Assembly (NCBI GenBank): GCA_022821365.1
Contig: JAJEDS010000171.1
Span: 1 to 38,368 of the forward strand
Direction of reading: 5' to 3'
DNA length: 38,368 nt
Source of the DNA: Dehalococcoidia bacterium
Lineage (GTDB): Bacteria; Chloroflexota; Dehalococcoidia; Lucifugimonadales; UBA3495
The translations under genes and the position numbers were made by a program. Shown piece after piece: positions 2,879-20,712 of the stretch; positions within the stretch are counted from its first letter, which is position 1; each line of letters begins with the position of its first letter. The notes under the pieces were generated by a model, which made no database searches, was not told the origin of the DNA, and worked only from the letters and a program-made list of their open reading frames with translations.

Positions 2879-3496
2879 TCAAGAAATGGCTTGCCTGAGA
2901 GCGCAATAGAATACCTGGAAACTGCGAGAACAATTACGTTCTGGCGCCATCTGGGCTGCCATGTCCCTTGCGGCCTCTACCTTCCGAAGGCCACTCTTAA
3001 AGTAATTTCGCCTCTGTAGCAACCTTTCAAAAGTCTCCCAAGCTCCTCCCGCAACGGCGTCCGGGTCACGATAACGCGCTTGTCCCAAGGTCTTGCGATT
3101 GATTCGCGGATAAGCCTTACAGATCGCTTCCGGGTCACCAATGTACCAAGCTTCCAATTCTTCAATGACGACTCGGTTTGCTACTTGCCACCTTCCGCTC
3201 GGTTCTCTGGTTCGCGTGATTAGACCAGCTGCAAAAGCCACTTGTTCGAGATTGTTCTTCAAGCCAAGGCAATTGTCATCGTCCCTATCAACTAATACAA
3301 AAATACTCCAATTGGTTGGCAACCATTGCGCGTATCCCCGTAATCTGGAGGGTAATTTGGAGAGAAGGTCTTGCTTTCCCTGATATGAGTGGGTTTCATA
3401 GCTACAATGTTCCGGCAGGACAGAAATCAGGAAAACCTCGAGAAAAGCCTCCATAGACGGTTCTTCAACCAAGAATATGAGGTGACGTTGATCCAT
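2879..3496 (-). CDS. DUF4276 family protein (TOPRIM-like)
   Basis: 205 aa; N-terminal LVEEPSMEAFL, LVDRDDDNC acidic motif and EELEAWYIGD motif characteristic of DUF4276; directly downstream of the ATPase gene. Confidence 0.8.
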   Translation of the reverse strand: MDQRHLIFLVEEPSMEAFLEVFLISVLPEHCSYETHSYQGKQDLLSKLPSRLRGYAQWLPTNWSIFVLVDRDDDNCLGLKNNLEQVAFAAGLITRTREPSGRWQVANRVVIEELEAWYIGDPEAICKAYPRINRKTLGQARYRDPDAVAGGAWETFERLLQRRNYFKSGLRKVEAARDMAAQMAPERNCSRSFQVFYCALRQAIS

Positions 3497-3501
3497 GGTT
3501 C

Positions 3502-4734
3502 CTAGATCAGTGGACCAACGGAAGTCCCTTGGTTAATCAGGGGATCGCCGATGCGAAAGTGGCCTTCCATCCATAGATGTCCAAGCTGGGCTCCGTTTCT
3601 GATGAAATCTGCAATACCCTTGATATCTGAAACGGTTTGCGCCTGGGAAAAGCCTCTCGAGTCACGCCATAACACCCTCACTTCTTCGGGGCGCAGAGCA
3701 TTCAGGAAAAAGGGTGAGTGAGTCGTTACCAGCAATTGGGTTTGCTCACTAGCTTTCCTACACTCCTCCCCCAGTTCGTGAAGCAGGCGGGGATGGAGGA
3801 AATTTTCCGGCTCTTCTATGCCTATGAAAGGAGGCGGATCCGGATCGTAAAGCAGCATCAGGTAGGCGAGCATTTTCAGGGTTCCGTCGGATGCGAAACG
3901 GGCCATCACCGGGTCGTCAAAGGGGGCGTCTTTAATCTGCAGCAGCAGTCTCCCGTCAGGCATAGGATGTGACATTACCCTTTCGAATCTCGGAACCCGG
4001 CGTTGGAGGGTATTTGAAATAATTTCGAGACGATCCGGGTGTTGTTCCCACAAGTATTGGACCACATTGGCCAGGTTATCTCCGGACCTGCTCAGGCGTT
4101 CATTGGGGCCGGCTTCGGGTTGACCCCGCGCGCTGTCTGCTGACAGATAAGACACATACCATCCGGCGATGAAGTTACTTAATGCCGCAACCCGAGGGTG
4201 CTGGGCGAATTGACCCAGGGCGCTCACAGCCAGAAGGTCGGGGGATTGTAACGGTTCTTCAAGTCTCTGGTCGTCCTCGTCTGGTAACTCACCACTGGTT
4301 GCACGTCCTTGCCCCTCGTGGTATTCCAGGAAGCGGAAGGGCTTGCCATGGCTTCTCCTCCTCCATTGAAGCCATTCCGACTGCACTACCGGGCGTCCCT
4401 GTATCTCTTCAACCTCCAAATGGTAGGTGATGAGGGGTTGCTTCGGCCTTTCCCTGTACTTTACTTCGATAGTAACAGGGCCTCCCGATCCACGTGTCTT
4501 GATCTCCCTTGCTCTGCCGCGCCTGTCCCATGCGAACCTCAGGCCAAACTGGAAACACTCTGAAAGGAACGCAAACACATCGAAAATAGTAGATTTGCCG
4601 CTCCCATTAGGGCCGAGCAGTACAGTCAGAGGCGTCAGGTCCTTTAGTTCAACGTCACGTAAGGCCCTGAAGTTCTGCACCTTCAAGGAGGTTATTCTGG
4701 GTGGCGTCCTTCCTTGGCTCACTGGGGAATCCAT
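3502..4734 (-). CDS. AAA/ABC-type ATPase (RecF/OLD-like, AAA_21)
   Basis: [36 protein letters not shown] (Walker A), [13 protein letters not shown] (Walker B), [11 protein letters not shown]. Start set to internal ATG 4732-4734 (MDSPVSQG). Confidence 0.88.
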
Positions 4735-5008
4735 GGGCAATACAGTTTCTCCGAAATGCAGGTCTGTAAATCTTATGTAACTTTGTAAGCTTAACACCAA
4801 CAAGCAAGCATACGCACGGTAACTGGAACTGGAGTAACAGTTCACGTTTGTCGAAAGACTCCCGTTCTGAATCCGTCATACCGGCTTTCGCAGGGTTCCA
4901 AGCCTGTTGGTACCAGTGTGTTTCGGAGCAAGTCTGGAGTGTCAGCTAAGGTTCGAGATCCCCCATTTCTGAACAATTACGTTGTCGTGTTGTTATGGGA
5001 CGCCCCCC

Positions 5009-13397: not shown

Positions 13398-13554
13398 TTG
13401 CTACCTCTCAAAAGCGTCTATTTGGTCGTCCGGCTAATTCTAAGGCGGCCCCAATCTAGTGTCAATTAAGGCTGGCGCATCCGCCGCGCGTCCCCTTGAT
13501 GCAAATTGTCCTCGATTCGTGGATAATTGAGCAAACACGCATGGAGTGACGGTT

Positions 13555-14106
13555 ATGGTTTCCAAGCCCCGACTGGTAACCGCCGAGGAACTGCTGGATA
13601 TGCCCCACGACGGGTATCACTACGAACTGGTGAGAGGTGAGTTGCGAAAAATGGCGCCTGCTGGTTACAGACACGGAAAGTCCGCAGGAAATATCAATGG
13701 TGTGCTTTTTGTTCATGTGACGGCCAACAACCTTGGCACGGTCCCTACAGCAGAGACTGGCTTCTTGCTGGCTTCGGACCCTGACCTGGTGCGCGTACCG
13801 GATGTGGCCTTCGTCCGCCGGGAACGCGAGGAGGCCGTAGGCATAATGGATGGCTTCTTCCCCGGACCTCCCGACTTGGCCATAGAGGTAATTTCACCCT
13901 ACGACCGTTATTCAGAAGTCGAAGAGAAGGTGTCGGACTGGCTGGCTGCCGGTACGCTCATGGTGGTTGTAGTTGACCCTCGCCGGCGCACGGCCAGCGT
14001 ACGTCTCCCTGGCCAGGCTCCGGTAACCCTTACCGAGCATGACACTCTCGACGGCGGCGATGTTGTTCCCGGGTGGAGCATGCCCGTCGCTGATATTTTC
14101 GCCTAA
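13555..14106 (+). CDS. Uma2 family (DUF820) putative restriction-endonuclease-fold protein, copy 1
   Basis: LVTAEELLDMPHDGYHYELVRGELRKMAPAG...PPDLAIEVISPYDRYSEVEEKVSDWLAAGTLMVVVVDP. Confidence 0.92.
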   Translation: MVSKPRLVTAEELLDMPHDGYHYELVRGELRKMAPAGYRHGKSAGNINGVLFVHVTANNLGTVPTAETGFLLASDPDLVRVPDVAFVRREREEAVGIMDGFFPGPPDLAIEVISPYDRYSEVEEKVSDWLAAGTLMVVVVDPRRRTASVRLPGQAPVTLTEHDTLDGGDVVPGWSMPVADIFA

Positions 14107-14936: not shown

Positions 14937-15881
14937 ATGACAGTCATGGTTACCGGGGGCAACGGCCTCATAGGCTCCCGCATTATTCGCAAGCTGCAGG
15001 AACGGGGCGAGGACGTTATGTCCTTTGACCTGGCGCCGCCCCGCGCCAACTTACCCCTGCACCGGCATCTGGCCGACGTGCCTTTCTATCGGGGAGACAT
15101 CACCCAGATTCCCCATCTCCTGGAAGCGATTAACCTCCACCAGGTAGACCGCATAATCCACATGGCTGCCCTGCTGCCCCCGGATACGGAAGACCGGCCC
15201 CACTTCGGAATGCAGGTCAACATCGTTGGCACCAACAACGTCTTTGAGGCAGCCCGCTGGACCGGCGTGCAGAGGGTGGTATATGCCAGTTCCATCGCCG
15301 TGTACGGTGTGCAGGAGACCTTCGGCGAACGGCCCCTGGTTGAAGACGACCTGACCGCCCCCATCAACGTCTACGGCATGACCAAGGCGGCCAACGACTT
15401 CTCAGCCTGGAAGTACCGGGACCGGTACGGCCTGGACCTGCGGGGCATCCGCATAGGCACCGTATTCGGCCACGGCCGCACCACCGGCATGACGGGCATG
15501 ATCGGCGGCCTGATGGTTTCCCTGCCTGCCCTGGGGCGGCCCGTGGCCATGCCCTTCAACCCGGACGAGGCATCGCCCATGATCCACGCCGAAGACGCCG
15601 CCGAAGTCTTCGTGCAGGTGGCCCTGTCCGGCGGCCTGAACCACCACGTTTACCTGACCGGCGGCCACCTGGCTACCATTGGCGACATGGCCGACATGGT
15701 GCGCAGCTTCATCCCCGACGCCCAGATCACCACCGGGCAGCAGGCCGTCCCCCACGTCTACCTGGTGGACAACAGCCGCATGCTGGCCGACGTAGGCTAC
15801 GAAATGGCCCCCCTGGAGGTAAGGGTGCTGGAACACATCAACGACGCGCGGGAGGAGGCGGGGTTGGGGGCGTTATCGTAA
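14937..15881 (+). CDS. NAD-dependent epimerase/dehydratase family protein
   Basis: MVTGGNGLIGSRIIRKL, YASSIAVYG, YGMTKAANDF. Confidence 0.93.
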   Translation: MTVMVTGGNGLIGSRIIRKLQERGEDVMSFDLAPPRANLPLHRHLADVPFYRGDITQIPHLLEAINLHQVDRIIHMAALLPPDTEDRPHFGMQVNIVGTNNVFEAARWTGVQRVVYASSIAVYGVQETFGERPLVEDDLTAPINVYGMTKAANDFSAWKYRDRYGLDLRGIRIGTVFGHGRTTGMTGMIGGLMVSLPALGRPVAMPFNPDEASPMIHAEDAAEVFVQVALSGGLNHHVYLTGGHLATIGDMADMVRSFIPDAQITTGQQAVPHVYLVDNSRMLADVGYEMAPLEVRVLEHINDAREEAGLGALS

Positions 15882-15894
15882 TAGAGGGCTACTG

Positions 15895-16524
15895 TCAAAA
15901 CGGTAACTCTAACTCGTTGCCGTAGCACCCTGAAATTTGCAAATAGCAGCGCTCGGGGAAATTCTCATCGGCATCGGGTGGTTTGTACCAGCGGGCCAAC
16001 GATACGCGCACCAAGGCACCTTCTGGAATAACATCTAAGCTACGCTCCACTCCAACATGCGGAATCCTAAAGGGCTCATACCTGTAGTAGTGCCTTTGTC
16101 TTTCAGGATCCCAGTTGCCGGGTAGGTCCTTGTCCGGCACCCAGAAACCGACGCTCTGGGCTGGTATATCGTCCTGAATATACCCACTGCCCCCGGAAGT
16201 GGGACCTCTGACTTTCCCGTCGAACAGTTCTTCTATGCCACCACGCCACGTCGGTACCCAAGAGGCTAAGGATGCCGACAAATCTGACAAGGTATAGGAA
16301 AATTCGGAGGACGTAACAACCACGTCTTCAACATGGGGAAGCCTTAAGTCGGTGGAGGGAGTGTATTCAATATCCCAGACTTGCCCGATTTCATAAGGGG
16401 TATCTTCAGGGAGAAAAGGATACCCTTCTTGGTCCGTCAAACGTAAATTCGTACGGTCACGTGCCAGCGCACCTACACATACGCCGCTACCTGCCCAGGT
16501 CCTGGAAACAATCAGGCATCTCAT
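15895..16524 (-). CDS. Uncharacterised protein, probable dual OB-fold (DuOB-like) family
   Basis: MRCLIVSRTWAGSGVCVGAL...LRLTDQEGYPFLPEDTPYEIGQVWDIEY...LPHVEDVVV. Assignment from recalled family pattern; ATG overlaps upstream stop (ATGA). Confidence 0.6.
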   Translation of the reverse strand: MRCLIVSRTWAGSGVCVGALARDRTNLRLTDQEGYPFLPEDTPYEIGQVWDIEYTPSTDLRLPHVEDVVVTSSEFSYTLSDLSASLASWVPTWRGGIEELFDGKVRGPTSGGSGYIQDDIPAQSVGFWVPDKDLPGNWDPERQRHYYRYEPFRIPHVGVERSLDVIPEGALVRVSLARWYKPPDADENFPERCYLQISGCYGNELELPF

Positions 16525-17006
16525 GGCATCAAATTGACGACCTCAACACCATAATAGTCGGCTACCCGTCCGGCGACTATGGACCGGTGACACGCTTCGG
16601 GGGATTCTTCGACACAGAAAAAGGCCATGCTCTCTACGCCTTCAAGAGAACCATCAAACTGCTCTAACTCTTCCTCGAAAGTCCTCAGTATTTCGTACTT
16701 GTAAGCCTCAATGAAAGGTAGGGACAGCTCGGTTCGTTGCCGTTTCAATACCCCCGTAGCTGCGTCTTCGTCCTTTTGCAGTGTGCGGATGTCAGTAGTG
16801 GGAGCCAGCCTGCTGATGTGGCGATATTCCTTGTTGTTACTGTGCAAGGCCTCCTGCAGTCTGTTCTTGTTCAAGAAAGCGTACTTGGCGCCCCGCATAC
16901 CGGCGCGCTGGCGAACATCCACCAAGAGGTCAATGTCAGCCTCTTCCAGGGCTTCCAGGAAGGAATGTTCATCAAATCCATAACCGCCTATGGTAAAAAC
17001 TCTCAT
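16521..17006 (-). CDS. DUF488 domain protein, copy B
   Basis: MRVFTIGGYGFDEHSFLEALEEADIDLLVDVR...FFCVEESPEACHRSIVAGRVADYYGVEVVNLMP. Confidence 0.88.
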   Translation of the reverse strand: MRVFTIGGYGFDEHSFLEALEEADIDLLVDVRQRAGMRGAKYAFLNKNRLQEALHSNNKEYRHISRLAPTTDIRTLQKDEDAATGVLKRQRTELSLPFIEAYKYEILRTFEEELEQFDGSLEGVESMAFFCVEESPEACHRSIVAGRVADYYGVEVVNLMP

Positions 17007-17563
17007 CCCAATTCTTTCCTCTCGGCAACGCGCTTGCTAGACACCAGGTCGAACCCCGGTAGTGGAATCTTCCCGCTCGTGCGCTGCTGCATAATCTCAG
17101 ACTGGAACTTTTGGCTGCCATCGGGCATTAGGTGGAAAACCTGCACACCGCGATCGTACAGTTCGTTTCCAATTAGCGCAGATCGGTGGCAGTTGGCAGG
17201 GTTCCCTTCACTGCAAAGCAATGCCAGAGAGAACCCTCGTTCACAGGCGGTCAAAAGGCGACTGATACCTTCCTGAAAGAAATTGCGCTGGCGACACTCC
17301 CCATAGTCAACATTTCCGTTCTCCGTATAGCAAGTGGGGTCTTGGGGACGCCCTCCCAGTTGTTCGCCCATGAAAATGTAATGCAGGTTGGCCTTGGCAA
17401 GATGCTGTGCCAGAGTGTTCCTGGAAAAATCCGGCTGGTACTTGGAATAAGGTTGTGACCGGACATCTACCACGAATTTAATTCCCTGATCTTTCAACTG
17501 GGTCACGATCTCATCAATACTTCTGCCGCCGTGACCGATTGTGAAAACTCTGAAGTCAGTCAT
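17003..17563 (-). CDS. DUF488 domain protein, copy A
   Basis: MTDFRVFTIGHGGRSIDEIVTQLKDQGIKFVVDVRSQPYSKY...LLCSEGNPANCHRSALIGNEL. Start set to 17561-17563. Confidence 0.9.
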   Translation of the reverse strand: MTDFRVFTIGHGGRSIDEIVTQLKDQGIKFVVDVRSQPYSKYQPDFSRNTLAQHLAKANLHYIFMGEQLGGRPQDPTCYTENGNVDYGECRQRNFFQEGISRLLTACERGFSLALLCSEGNPANCHRSALIGNELYDRGVQVFHLMPDGSQKFQSEIMQQRTSGKIPLPGFDLVSSKRVAERKELG

Positions 17564-17701
17564 AAATTCCACTGCTGTGTTGATCTCGATGTGGGTGGCC
17601 CAATGGTATTGGAGATAGTGTTTTACAGTCAAGAACAAAGTGTCACTGCTCTTATTGCCGAAAGATACGGGGCACACAATACGCTTATATATCTCTATCC
17701 C

Positions 17702-18988
17702 TCAATCCTCCGACCGCGCCTGCCCGCCCATCTGCCGAATCTTCCCGTTAAACACCCCCGTCGCCAGGGCAAACAGCACCACCGCCGCGCCGCCGATGGA
17801 CACGGCGAAGGGGGCGCCAATCCAGGAGACGTTGGCCAGTGCCCCGGCCTGCAGGCCCCCCAGGGGCATAATGCAGTAAGTCATCCCGTAGAAACCCATC
17901 ACCCGCCCCCGCACATTGTCCGGCACCAGCACCTGCAGCGAACTCAGTATGGAAATCATATAAATGGAGTTGCTGCAGCCCAGAATCACCATCAACGCCA
18001 GCGCCAGCGTGAAGCTGCCCAGGAACTGGGAGGTCAGCCCGAAGGCAATGATCGTAAGGCCGAAGACGATGGCTCCGCCCACAATAGCCAGGCCCCGCCG
18101 TTCCACGCCTCCCCGGCCGCCCAGCCAGATGGTAGTCAGCAGCGCCCCAACGCCGCCCACGCCCAGCAGGATTCCCTGGCCCCTCGCGCCCACCTCCAGC
18201 ACGTCCACCGCGAATACGGGCATCAGCAGCACGTAGGCCATGCCGAAGAAGCTGTTGAAAAAGGTCATGGCAATCAGGAAGGCGAATATGCTGTTCTTCC
18301 CGATGAAGGTCATCCCCTCCCAGAGAGCGCGGGCGGGGTTGCGGGGCGCCCCCTGAGGTATGGGCTGAATGCGCAGGAAGAGCATCACCACGGCCATGAT
18401 GAAGAACCCCACCGCGGAAACTACCAGGGCCGTGCCGGTGTTGACCAGGTCAATGATGAACCCGGCGATGGCCGGCGCCACGATACGGGTGCCCTGCCAG
18501 ATGGTGGAGTTGAGGGCCACGGCGCTGGTCATGGCGGACCGTTCGATGAGGTGGGGATAGAGGGCCTGGCGGGCCGGGGTATCGAAGGCCTCCGCCGCGC
18601 CGGCCAGGAAGGCTATCACCAGGATATGCCACACCTCCACCACGCCCAACAGCGTCAGCAGCCCCATGACGAGGATGAACAAGCCGGTACTGCCCTGGGT
18701 GCTGAAAACCAGGATGCGCTTGTCCAGCCGGTCGGCGAAGACGCCCCCAACCAGGTTGAAGACGATGCCTGGGATGGCGTTGGCGGCCAGGGCATAACCC
18801 AGGTAGAGGGGGGAACCGGTCAACTCGTACACCAGCCAGCTCTGGGCCACCCGGAACATCTGGAAGCCGGTGACGGCGCAGAGCATGCCGGTCCAGTAGG
18901 CGCGGAAGGCGGGGTAACGAAAGGCGGGAGGGATCCGGCTGTCCCGGGGGCCGGTGGGTCTGGGAGTGACTGTCGGTCGTTGCTGCAT
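17702..18988 (-). CDS. MFS transporter (EntS/MFS_3-like)
   Basis: 428 aa hydrophobic; FADRLDKRILV loop 2-3 motif, VRGRVMGFY. Confidence 0.92.
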   Translation of the reverse strand: MQQRPTVTPRPTGPRDSRIPPAFRYPAFRAYWTGMLCAVTGFQMFRVAQSWLVYELTGSPLYLGYALAANAIPGIVFNLVGGVFADRLDKRILVFSTQGSTGLFILVMGLLTLLGVVEVWHILVIAFLAGAAEAFDTPARQALYPHLIERSAMTSAVALNSTIWQGTRIVAPAIAGFIIDLVNTGTALVVSAVGFFIMAVVMLFLRIQPIPQGAPRNPARALWEGMTFIGKNSIFAFLIAMTFFNSFFGMAYVLLMPVFAVDVLEVGARGQGILLGVGGVGALLTTIWLGGRGGVERRGLAIVGGAIVFGLTIIAFGLTSQFLGSFTLALALMVILGCSNSIYMISILSSLQVLVPDNVRGRVMGFYGMTYCIMPLGGLQAGALANVSWIGAPFAVSIGGAAVVLFALATGVFNGKIRQMGGQARSED

Positions 18989-19126: not shown

Positions 19127-19678
19127 TTAAGCAAAAATATCCGCCACCGCCATCCGCCACCCGGGCACTATATCGCCGCCCTCCAGCGTGTCTCCCTCAC
19201 CCAGGATAACCGGGTTCATGCCGGCGACCCGAACGGTAGCGGTGCGGTTCCGCGGGTTGACTACCACCACCATGCTGGCCCCTGCCTCCAGCCACTCGTC
19301 CACCTTCTCGTAAACCTCGGTGTAGCGGTCGTTGGGTGAGATGACTTCAACGGCCAGATCGGGCGGGCCGGGGAAGTAGCCGTCAACGATGCCGGCCGCT
19401 TCAACCCGTTCCCTCCGTACGAAGGCAGCATCCGGGGCGCGCACGGTGTCCGGGTCCCTTGCCAACAAGAAACCGGTTTCAGCAGCAGTAACCTGGCCCA
19501 AGCCATTAACTCTGACGTGATTGTGCAGCGAGCCGAAAATATTCCCTGATACAGTTCCGTGAATAAATCCGGCCGGCGCCATCTTTCGCAACTCCCCTCG
19601 CACCAATTCATACTTGAACCCGTCATCGGGCATATCCAGCAGTTCTTCAGCAGTTACCAGTTGAGTCTTGGCAACCAT
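19127..19678 (-). CDS. Uma2 family (DUF820) putative endonuclease-fold protein, copy 2
   Basis: MVAKTQLVTAEELLDMPDDGFKYELVRGELRKMAPAG...PPDLAVEVISPNDRYTEVYEKVDEWLEAGASMVVVVNP; clear paralog of 13555-14106. Confidence 0.92.
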   Translation of the reverse strand: MVAKTQLVTAEELLDMPDDGFKYELVRGELRKMAPAGFIHGTVSGNIFGSLHNHVRVNGLGQVTAAETGFLLARDPDTVRAPDAAFVRRERVEAAGIVDGYFPGPPDLAVEVISPNDRYTEVYEKVDEWLEAGASMVVVVNPRNRTATVRVAGMNPVILGEGDTLEGGDIVPGWRMAVADIFA

Positions 19679-19711
19679 GATGTTCGCTCCCGGTCGTATT
19701 TCTCTTCTTCC

Positions 19712-19790
19712 ACGAGGGGACACAAAGCTACACAAAGGAATTGCCAGACTTCCCTTCGTGATTCTTCGTGTGCCTTCGTGGATGATTATT
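19712..19790. repeat. Imperfect inverted repeat (CACGAAG/CTTCGTG type)
   Basis: ccacgaggggacacaaagctacacaaaggaa...cccttcgtgattcttcgtgtgccttcgtgg between Uma2 copy 2 and an LLM gene. Confidence 0.75.
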
Positions 19791-20712
19791 GATGAAACCG
19801 CGGCAGGATTTCCTCGCCCATAATGTTCAACTGCTCCACCGACTCTTCCCCGGAGCACAGGGGCCGTACCACGAACTTGGAGGCTCCGGCATCAACGTAA
19901 CGCTGGATGACATCGCTGACCTCGTCCACGTCGCCCAGGGCGCTGTACTCGGTGAAGTTCACGTCGGGCCGGTGGCGGGTAACAAACTGGTGGGTCTGGG
20001 CCACGGCCTTCTCCCGGTCGGAGCAGATGTAGTAACCCAGCAGCATGCCGATGTGGTCTTCCTCGATCTCCCGTTCGTACTTGTCCGCCGTCTCGAACAC
20101 AATGTCCCGCCCTTGGCTTATTTCATCCGTGGTCGCGCCGGAGACCAGCCAGCCGTCGCCGACCCGGCCCACGCGGCGGGCGGCGGCGGGACTGCGGCCG
20201 CCGATCCACACCGGCGGCGAGGGTTTGAAGCAGGTCTTGGGAGTGATGCTGACGTTGTGGCAGGTGAAGAACCGGCCCTCGTGGGTAACGTTGTCCTCCT
20301 CCCACAGGCGGCGCATCAGGACGATAGCCTCGTCGGTGCGGGGGCTGCGGTCCTCTTTGGGCACGCCGCAGGCCTCGTATTCCTCGATCTCCTCGCCGCC
20401 CAGGCCCACGGCGGGGAAGCAACGGCCCTGGGACAGGAAGTCCAGGGTGGCAATCTGCTTGGCCAGGACCACGGGGTTCCGCAGGGGAAGGGCCAGGACG
20501 CTGGTCCCAAACTTCATCCGGTCGGACCAGGCGGCCACCATGGAAAGGGCCACCATGGGCTCCAGGCTGAACCGGTCGCTGACGATGCGGTCGCTCAGCC
20601 AGATGGAATCGTACCCGTACTTGTCGCCCAGTTCCACCAGGCGGCGCAGGAAGTCGGGGTCGTCTCCCCCCTGTCCGTAGGCGCCCGGCACAAATCCAAT
20701 GGCAACGCTCAT
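19786..20712 (-). CDS. LLM class flavin/F420-dependent oxidoreductase
   Basis: IGFVPGAYGQGGDDPDFLRRLVELGDKYGYDSIWLSDRI...FGTSVLALPLRNPVVLAKQIATLDFLSQGRCFPAVGLGG. Confidence 0.94.
   Translation of the reverse strand: MSVAIGFVPGAYGQGGDDPDFLRRLVELGDKYGYDSIWLSDRIVSDRFSLEPMVALSMVAAWSDRMKFGTSVLALPLRNPVVLAKQIATLDFLSQGRCFPAVGLGGEEIEEYEACGVPKEDRSPRTDEAIVLMRRLWEEDNVTHEGRFFTCHNVSITPKTCFKPSPPVWIGGRSPAAARRVGRVGDGWLVSGATTDEISQGRDIVFETADKYEREIEEDHIGMLLGYYICSDREKAVAQTHQFVTRHRPDVNFTEYSALGDVDEVSDVIQRYVDAGASKFVVRPLCSGEESVEQLNIMGEEILPRFHQ

Follow-up and report, generated by a model that had tools for sequence, protein, structure and literature searches.

Three genes on one strand, encoding two divergent DUF488 proteins (DUF488a and DUF488b) and a dual OB-fold protein (DuOB), form a mobile operon that travels between distant bacteria and prophages. 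The operon was analyzed in a window of 38,368 nucleotides, the whole stretch of DNA under study, from a Dehalococcoidia bacterium (contig JAJEDS010000171.1 of assembly GCA_022821365.1). Since its genes travel together and frequently come with a link to a DNA helicase, the triplet is probably a small antiviral DNA-processing machine. As an overall explanation, we lean, by a modest measure, toward a helicase-assisted module that acts on nucleic-acid ends or junctions in anti-phage or anti-mobile-element defense.

Operon structure, recurrence, and catalogued relative

All three open reading frames were confirmed on the minus strand of the window. DUF488a (17003..17563, 186 aa) is the first gene of the operon, DUF488b (16521..17006, 161 aa) the second, and DuOB (15895..16524, 209 aa) the third. 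The exact ATGA stop/start overlaps that the earlier note had described were both present on this strand, between DUF488a and DUF488b at 17003..17006 and between DUF488b and DuOB at 16521..16524 (junction sequences GGGATGAGAG and GCCATGAGAT). An upstream GTG at 17677 would lengthen DUF488a to 224 aa; the ATG start is more likely because relatives of the protein align from 'RVFTIGHGG'.

The proposed gene identities agreed with the Pfam matches, which were over the cut-off for all three proteins. DUF488a and DUF488b matched DUF488 (PF04343) at 79.4 and 53.6 bits, with E values of 4.5e-22 and 4.5e-14, against a curated cut-off of 22.2. DuOB matched PF22557 at 43.5 bits (E = 5.1e-11, cut-off 27), and positions 1-209 of the 210-position profile were covered. 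Against DUF488-N3a (PF22751), the DUF488 pair scored 17.4 and 18.5 bits, under the cut-off of 27.

A DuOB alignment search with one genome per species yielded 80 loci. They were distributed over about ten phyla, with Chloroflexota, Bacteroidota, Chlorobiota, Planctomycetota, Verrucomicrobiota, Poribacteria, Latescibacterota, Pseudomonadota, and Bacillota represented, along with one Geobacter. Gene order was counted over the 69 loci with at least 1.5 kb of sequence upstream of DuOB. The triplet, whose recurrence across genomes had been set beforehand as the test of the idea, was found as DUF488a-DUF488b-DuOB on one strand in 66 of these 69 loci. The DUF488 pair was inverted in L095 and missing from L133 and L134. 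Most loci had 20 or fewer bases between the end of the DUF488b homology and the DuOB homology, and an ATGA-type 4-bp overlap was found at 31 of 73 DUF488b/DuOB junctions. The tight operon is borne out by these counts, and the three-gene arrangement is more than chance. When neighbors up to eight genes away were clustered, no widely conserved fourth gene was found except in the PIF1 cases described below.

Three Bacteroidota loci (L097, L101, and L153) carried DUF488a and DuOB with DUF488b not detected, so it may not be obligatory to have both DUF488 enzymes. A copy in genome G032 (L202 6095-6823) showed a different change: a deletion seems to have created an in-frame fusion of DUF488b, reduced to its N-terminal two thirds, with the C-terminal half of DuOB, and this copy is probably decayed. 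A reciprocal DUF488b search of 400 Chloroflexota genomes gave nine matches, six of them in triplets, the G032 copy among these six. The three weaker matches, at about 170 bits, were solo genes (L199, L200, and L201, in G231, G366, and G017) with neither DUF488a nor DuOB nearby, and they are possibly an outgroup to the module.

These solo genes, together with the wide spread of DUF488 proteins (found in 6 of 14 control genomes), favor an ordinary metabolic operon, in which DUF488 would take part in small-molecule metabolism with DuOB as an accessory. The fusion and adjacency to DNA helicases, the tandem-OB fold, and the carriage by prophages argue against such an operon, and we consider it highly improbable.

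The earlier note had taken the triplet for an undescribed module, a claim that was not upheld, since the same gene set is already in PADLOC as the candidate PDC-M45. In PDC-M45, the same three families stand in one operon, with M45A as DuOB and M45B and M45C as DUF488 proteins. The window's DUF488a matched PDC-M45B at 2.4e-50 and its DUF488b matched PDC-M45C at 3.2e-11, the two genes being adjacent with an ATGA overlap. The window DuOB matched no PADLOC model at E values up to 1, even though Pfam places it in one family with the M45A proteins. The DuOB proteins of L034 and L035 likewise matched no PADLOC model, and the DuOB of L055 matched M45A at 1.9e-87. Gene order also differs: the window has DUF488a-DUF488b-DuOB, whereas the more distant DuOB clade of L055 has DuOB-DUF488a-DUF488b. 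Judged by these sequence comparisons, the window operon is a divergent variant of PDC-M45. Within the accessible literature, a search for PDC-M45 or the triplet found no experiment or functional test. The PDCs derive from a guilt-by-embedding approach and are mostly unvalidated (PMC12988326).

Conserved residues and predicted folds

The C-x-E...CHR motif was found in both DUF488 paralogs, as the earlier note had claimed. In DUF488a, the center reads C-S-E-x2-P-x2-C-H-R (LLCSEGNPANCHR), and its C, E, and C-H-R, along with a D-x-R strand, were invariant or nearly so among 100 homologues. In DUF488b, it reads C-V-E-x2-P-x-A-C-H-R (FFCVEESPEACHR), with C, E, and C-H-R invariant or nearly so among 77 homologues. 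The DUF488b subfamily has further invariants of its own at R37-G38, N45, R73, Q76, D80, and R90 (numbered from the second residue). Aligned with each other by hhalign (probability 98.5, E = 3.3e-15), the two proteins are clearly related, though they have diverged. Because the center is conserved in each, both DUF488 proteins look active, with a catalytic-type center. A pair made of one active and one inactive DUF488 protein was considered and rejected on the same conservation.

The intact center in both proteins also bears on the idea that the triplet works as an addiction or toxin-antitoxin-like cassette, one toxic DUF488 protein being held in check by the other members. Such a cassette would agree with the tight translational coupling and with the presence of HicAB at the same chromosomal site in congeners. 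Nevertheless, the lack of an active/inactive pair speaks against it, as does the fusion to a complete RecQ, which is unusual for toxin-antitoxin pairs, and this explanation is very unlikely.

To our knowledge, DUF488 is a widespread family without an established reaction. The window proteins presumably share DUF488 membership with the RapZ-C-DUF488-DUF4326 clade of the rhodanese-phosphatase superfamily, as named by Burroughs and Aravind in 2023; in the same work, DNA-end-processing roles were reportedly predicted for DUF488-clade enzymes in conflict systems. The Rossmann-like fold with an active-site cysteine loop that marks this superfamily was sought in an AlphaFold2 model of DUF488b, which was alpha/beta and confident (pLDDT 96.9). 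Its fold matches in the PDB were weak, many of them to tetrapyrrole-methylase/diphthine-synthase folds with E above 0.01. No close solved structure of DUF488b was found in the PDB by sequence or fold search, with no fold match under 1e-2, and a PDB sequence search with all three families returned no convincing relative.

The AlphaFold2 model of DuOB had a mean pLDDT of 94.8; one plasmid-record row was left out of the alignments behind the structure models. The best PDB matches were the tandem-OB DNA binders p202, p204, the AIM2/IFI16 HIN domains (HIN-200), POT1, the Oxytricha telomere end-binding protein, and BRCA2. Two tandem OB folds in DuOB are supported because these best matches are tandem-OB proteins, and the domain arrangement differs from theirs because the TM-scores are low. 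The likeness lies in having two OB folds in tandem; with a top E of 9.5e-4, a TM-score of about 0.3, and about 10% identity, it is an analogy of fold from which homology is not implied. The third protein had been proposed to be an OB-fold protein, and the structure comparison agreed, giving tandem OB folds and no unrelated enzyme fold. The model supports DuOB as a DNA-binding-like tandem OB-fold protein, the match being support for the fold and not proof of DNA binding. Against viral predicted structures, the best match had an E of 1.2e-2. The DuOB invariant residues (R28, P63-H64, E66, S124, and R192-C193) suggest a putative fixed binding site. The window DuOB deviates at two near-invariant tryptophans, which are replaced by Y180 and C200.

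Lower down, the DuOB fold list also held matches to IF1A, an OB-fold translation factor, that covered a single domain. Together with one triplet copy that adjoins a type III CRISPR adaptation region, they favor an RNA substrate: the DUF488 pair would modify or trim the ends of RNAs such as tRNA or phage mRNA, with DuOB as the RNA-binding part. Against this, both the helicase partners, RecQ and PIF1, and the fold matches that rank best over the whole length of DuOB point toward DNA, and an RNA module is improbable.

Helicase linkage, mobility, and genomic site

The helicase link, of which the earlier note made no mention, took three forms. In the first, a RecQ helicase was fused behind DuOB in 31 frames, and the full-length fusions contained DEAD, Helicase_C, RecQ zinc-binding, RQC, and HRDC domains. 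When the concatenated proteins were placed on a tree, these fusions fell into one clade (SH-aLRT 100) with members from Chloroflexota, Verrucomicrobiota, Poribacteria, and Latescibacterota. Many independent origins of the RecQ fusion were rejected on account of this single clade; the lone exception, L132, looks like a 32nd fusion that was apparently split by a frame break. The fusions of Poribacteria (L125, L136, L147, and L149) were longer, with frames of about 1040-1100 aa, and the one that was scanned, L125, had three HRDC domain matches. The stand-alone DuOB group that holds the window lies next to the fusion clade on the tree. Unlike its sister clade, the window DuOB stands alone, its open reading frame stopping at 209 aa without RecQ in frame, and a RecQ gene is present elsewhere in the window's genome.

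In the second form, DuOB was followed immediately, on the same strand, by a gene for a PIF1-type helicase. This was seen in four loci of Bacteroidota, three from Prevotellaceae and one from Ekhidna (L140 10702-12150, L144 10708-12753, L154 10710-12761, and L097 1953-3860). In the third, a RecQ-like helicase was close to L045 and L074, which belong to other DuOB branches with another gene order. These three kinds of helicase association suggest that the substrate is DNA.

Both helicases, RecQ and PIF1, serve in genome maintenance. Partners of this type would also suit a mobile operon for DNA (or RNA) repair or maintenance, in which DuOB would recruit RecQ/PIF1, or act with it, where forks stall or ends are blocked, leaving the cleaning of damaged termini to the DUF488 enzymes. 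The retention of the fused form across a broad clade and the mostly housekeeping neighbors of the triplet are in line with repair. The distribution of the triplet and the sites that it occupies, described below, are what weigh against it.

Among the 247 genomes of the order, a clear DuOB match was found in the window's genome alone; two others had marginal matches (E about 3e-4). No DuOB was found in the four congeners searched. Alignments with congeners placed the insertion interval at 15873..17705, a block of low GC with an epimerase gene on one side and an MFS gene on the other. The GC content of the triplet block was 0.49-0.56, and that of both flanks was mostly 0.60-0.67. Both flanking genes were kept in congeners at 80-88% identity. 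Between them, G504 has 136 bp, G497 carries a HicAB-like pair, and G474 carries Uma2 together with HicAB. The nearest tree relatives of the window triplet were alphaproteobacterial, a placement to be read with caution given the long branch.

The whole triplet was also present on three IMG/VR viral contigs, and a DUF488b search of IMG/VR returned the same three contigs only. In annotated phages, neither DuOB nor DUF488b had a match. On one of the three contigs, L160, a P2-like prophage, the triplet is flanked by the replication endonuclease gene and the portal gene. This position has been described as a P2 defense hotspot, home to tin, old, and numerous further systems (PMC9519451). On the prophage contig L159, a DNA methylase-like gene (N6_N4_Mtase, 3425-4831, minus strand) adjoins the triplet on the opposite strand. 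The Rhodothermus marinus plasmid pRMAR01 (L034 10911-16642) carries a complete triplet directly before cas1-cas2. A J-domain gene and cas6 follow cas1-cas2 on this plasmid, with csx2 and csm6 near.

Repair genes are rarely as sporadic as this triplet, which was clearly matched in none of the order's other 246 genomes. Carriage by prophages, including at the P2 defense hotspot, is likewise rare for repair genes, and so is an insertion site that holds HicAB or Uma2 in congeners. Therefore, a repair or maintenance operon is unlikely, although less so than the RNA, toxin-antitoxin, and metabolic alternatives.

The near neighbors of the window triplet were the epimerase, rsmG, the MFS transporter, a luciferase-like enzyme, and two Uma2 genes. 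Because the immediate neighbors are mostly metabolic or transport genes, the 38-kb window itself is not a defense island. Across the 80 loci, most immediate neighbors were housekeeping genes, and among 121 close neighbors tallied with PADLOC and Pfam, methyltransferase, TIR-TM, and AbiLi/Abi-like matches were only a minority; defense-island enrichment is therefore weak. The suggested link to conflict modules thus holds up in the prophage hotspot and the PADLOC candidate, and the enrichment looked for in the neighborhood survey does not add much to it.

Two further features of the window were recorded. An AAA_21 ATPase gene (3502-4845) and, after it, a DUF4276 gene (2879-3496) occupy 2879-4845 on the minus strand, 11 kb from the triplet; in the window scan, the pair was consistent with the PADLOC candidate HEC-01A/HEC-01B and is a second defense-like pair. 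The two Uma2 genes, putatively restriction endonuclease-like, flank the triplet at 13546-14106 (plus strand) and 19127-19858 (minus strand). They share a short inverted similarity, and a Uma2 gene also stands in the equivalent interval of a congener.

Proposed role of the triplet

The triplet very probably acts on nucleic acid, and a role in defense or conflict is likely. In the helicase-assisted end or junction module that we prefer, the three genes would be one mobile functional unit, related to PDC-M45. DuOB would bind an exposed nucleic-acid end or a single/double-strand junction, and the co-translated DUF488 pair would carry out complementary or successive chemistry on the nucleic acid held by DuOB. 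The most likely form of that chemistry would be transfer of a phosphate or sugar at DNA termini; that the DUF488 pair works chemically on DNA ends at all is conceivable but somewhat doubtful. The substrate would be supplied by a helicase. This would be RecQ in cis where it is fused to DuOB, the adjoining PIF1 for some Bacteroidota loci, and, for the window, perhaps the RecQ encoded elsewhere in the host genome. The purpose would most likely be defense against phages or mobile elements.

A more specific version is tentative and rather unlikely as it stands. With DuOB as an end-binding tandem-OB scaffold, a DUF488 heteromer might chemically modify the DNA ends that RecQ/PIF1 opens, so as to block or mark them, which would make the triplet a new class of antiviral nucleic-acid-end modification. 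The heteromer, and a part for the OB protein as sensor or guide, had been put forward in the earlier note, and both are candidate features here.

A mechanism for the triplet would advance PDC-M45 beyond a catalogued candidate. Relatives of PDC-M45 with another gene order, some of them fused to RecQ, can escape the current DuOB models. With a mobile minimal operon, a prophage hotspot, and a repeated tie to helicases, the question of the DUF488 reaction becomes testable. If the heteromer and end-marking reading were true, it would give DUF488 its first defined reaction.
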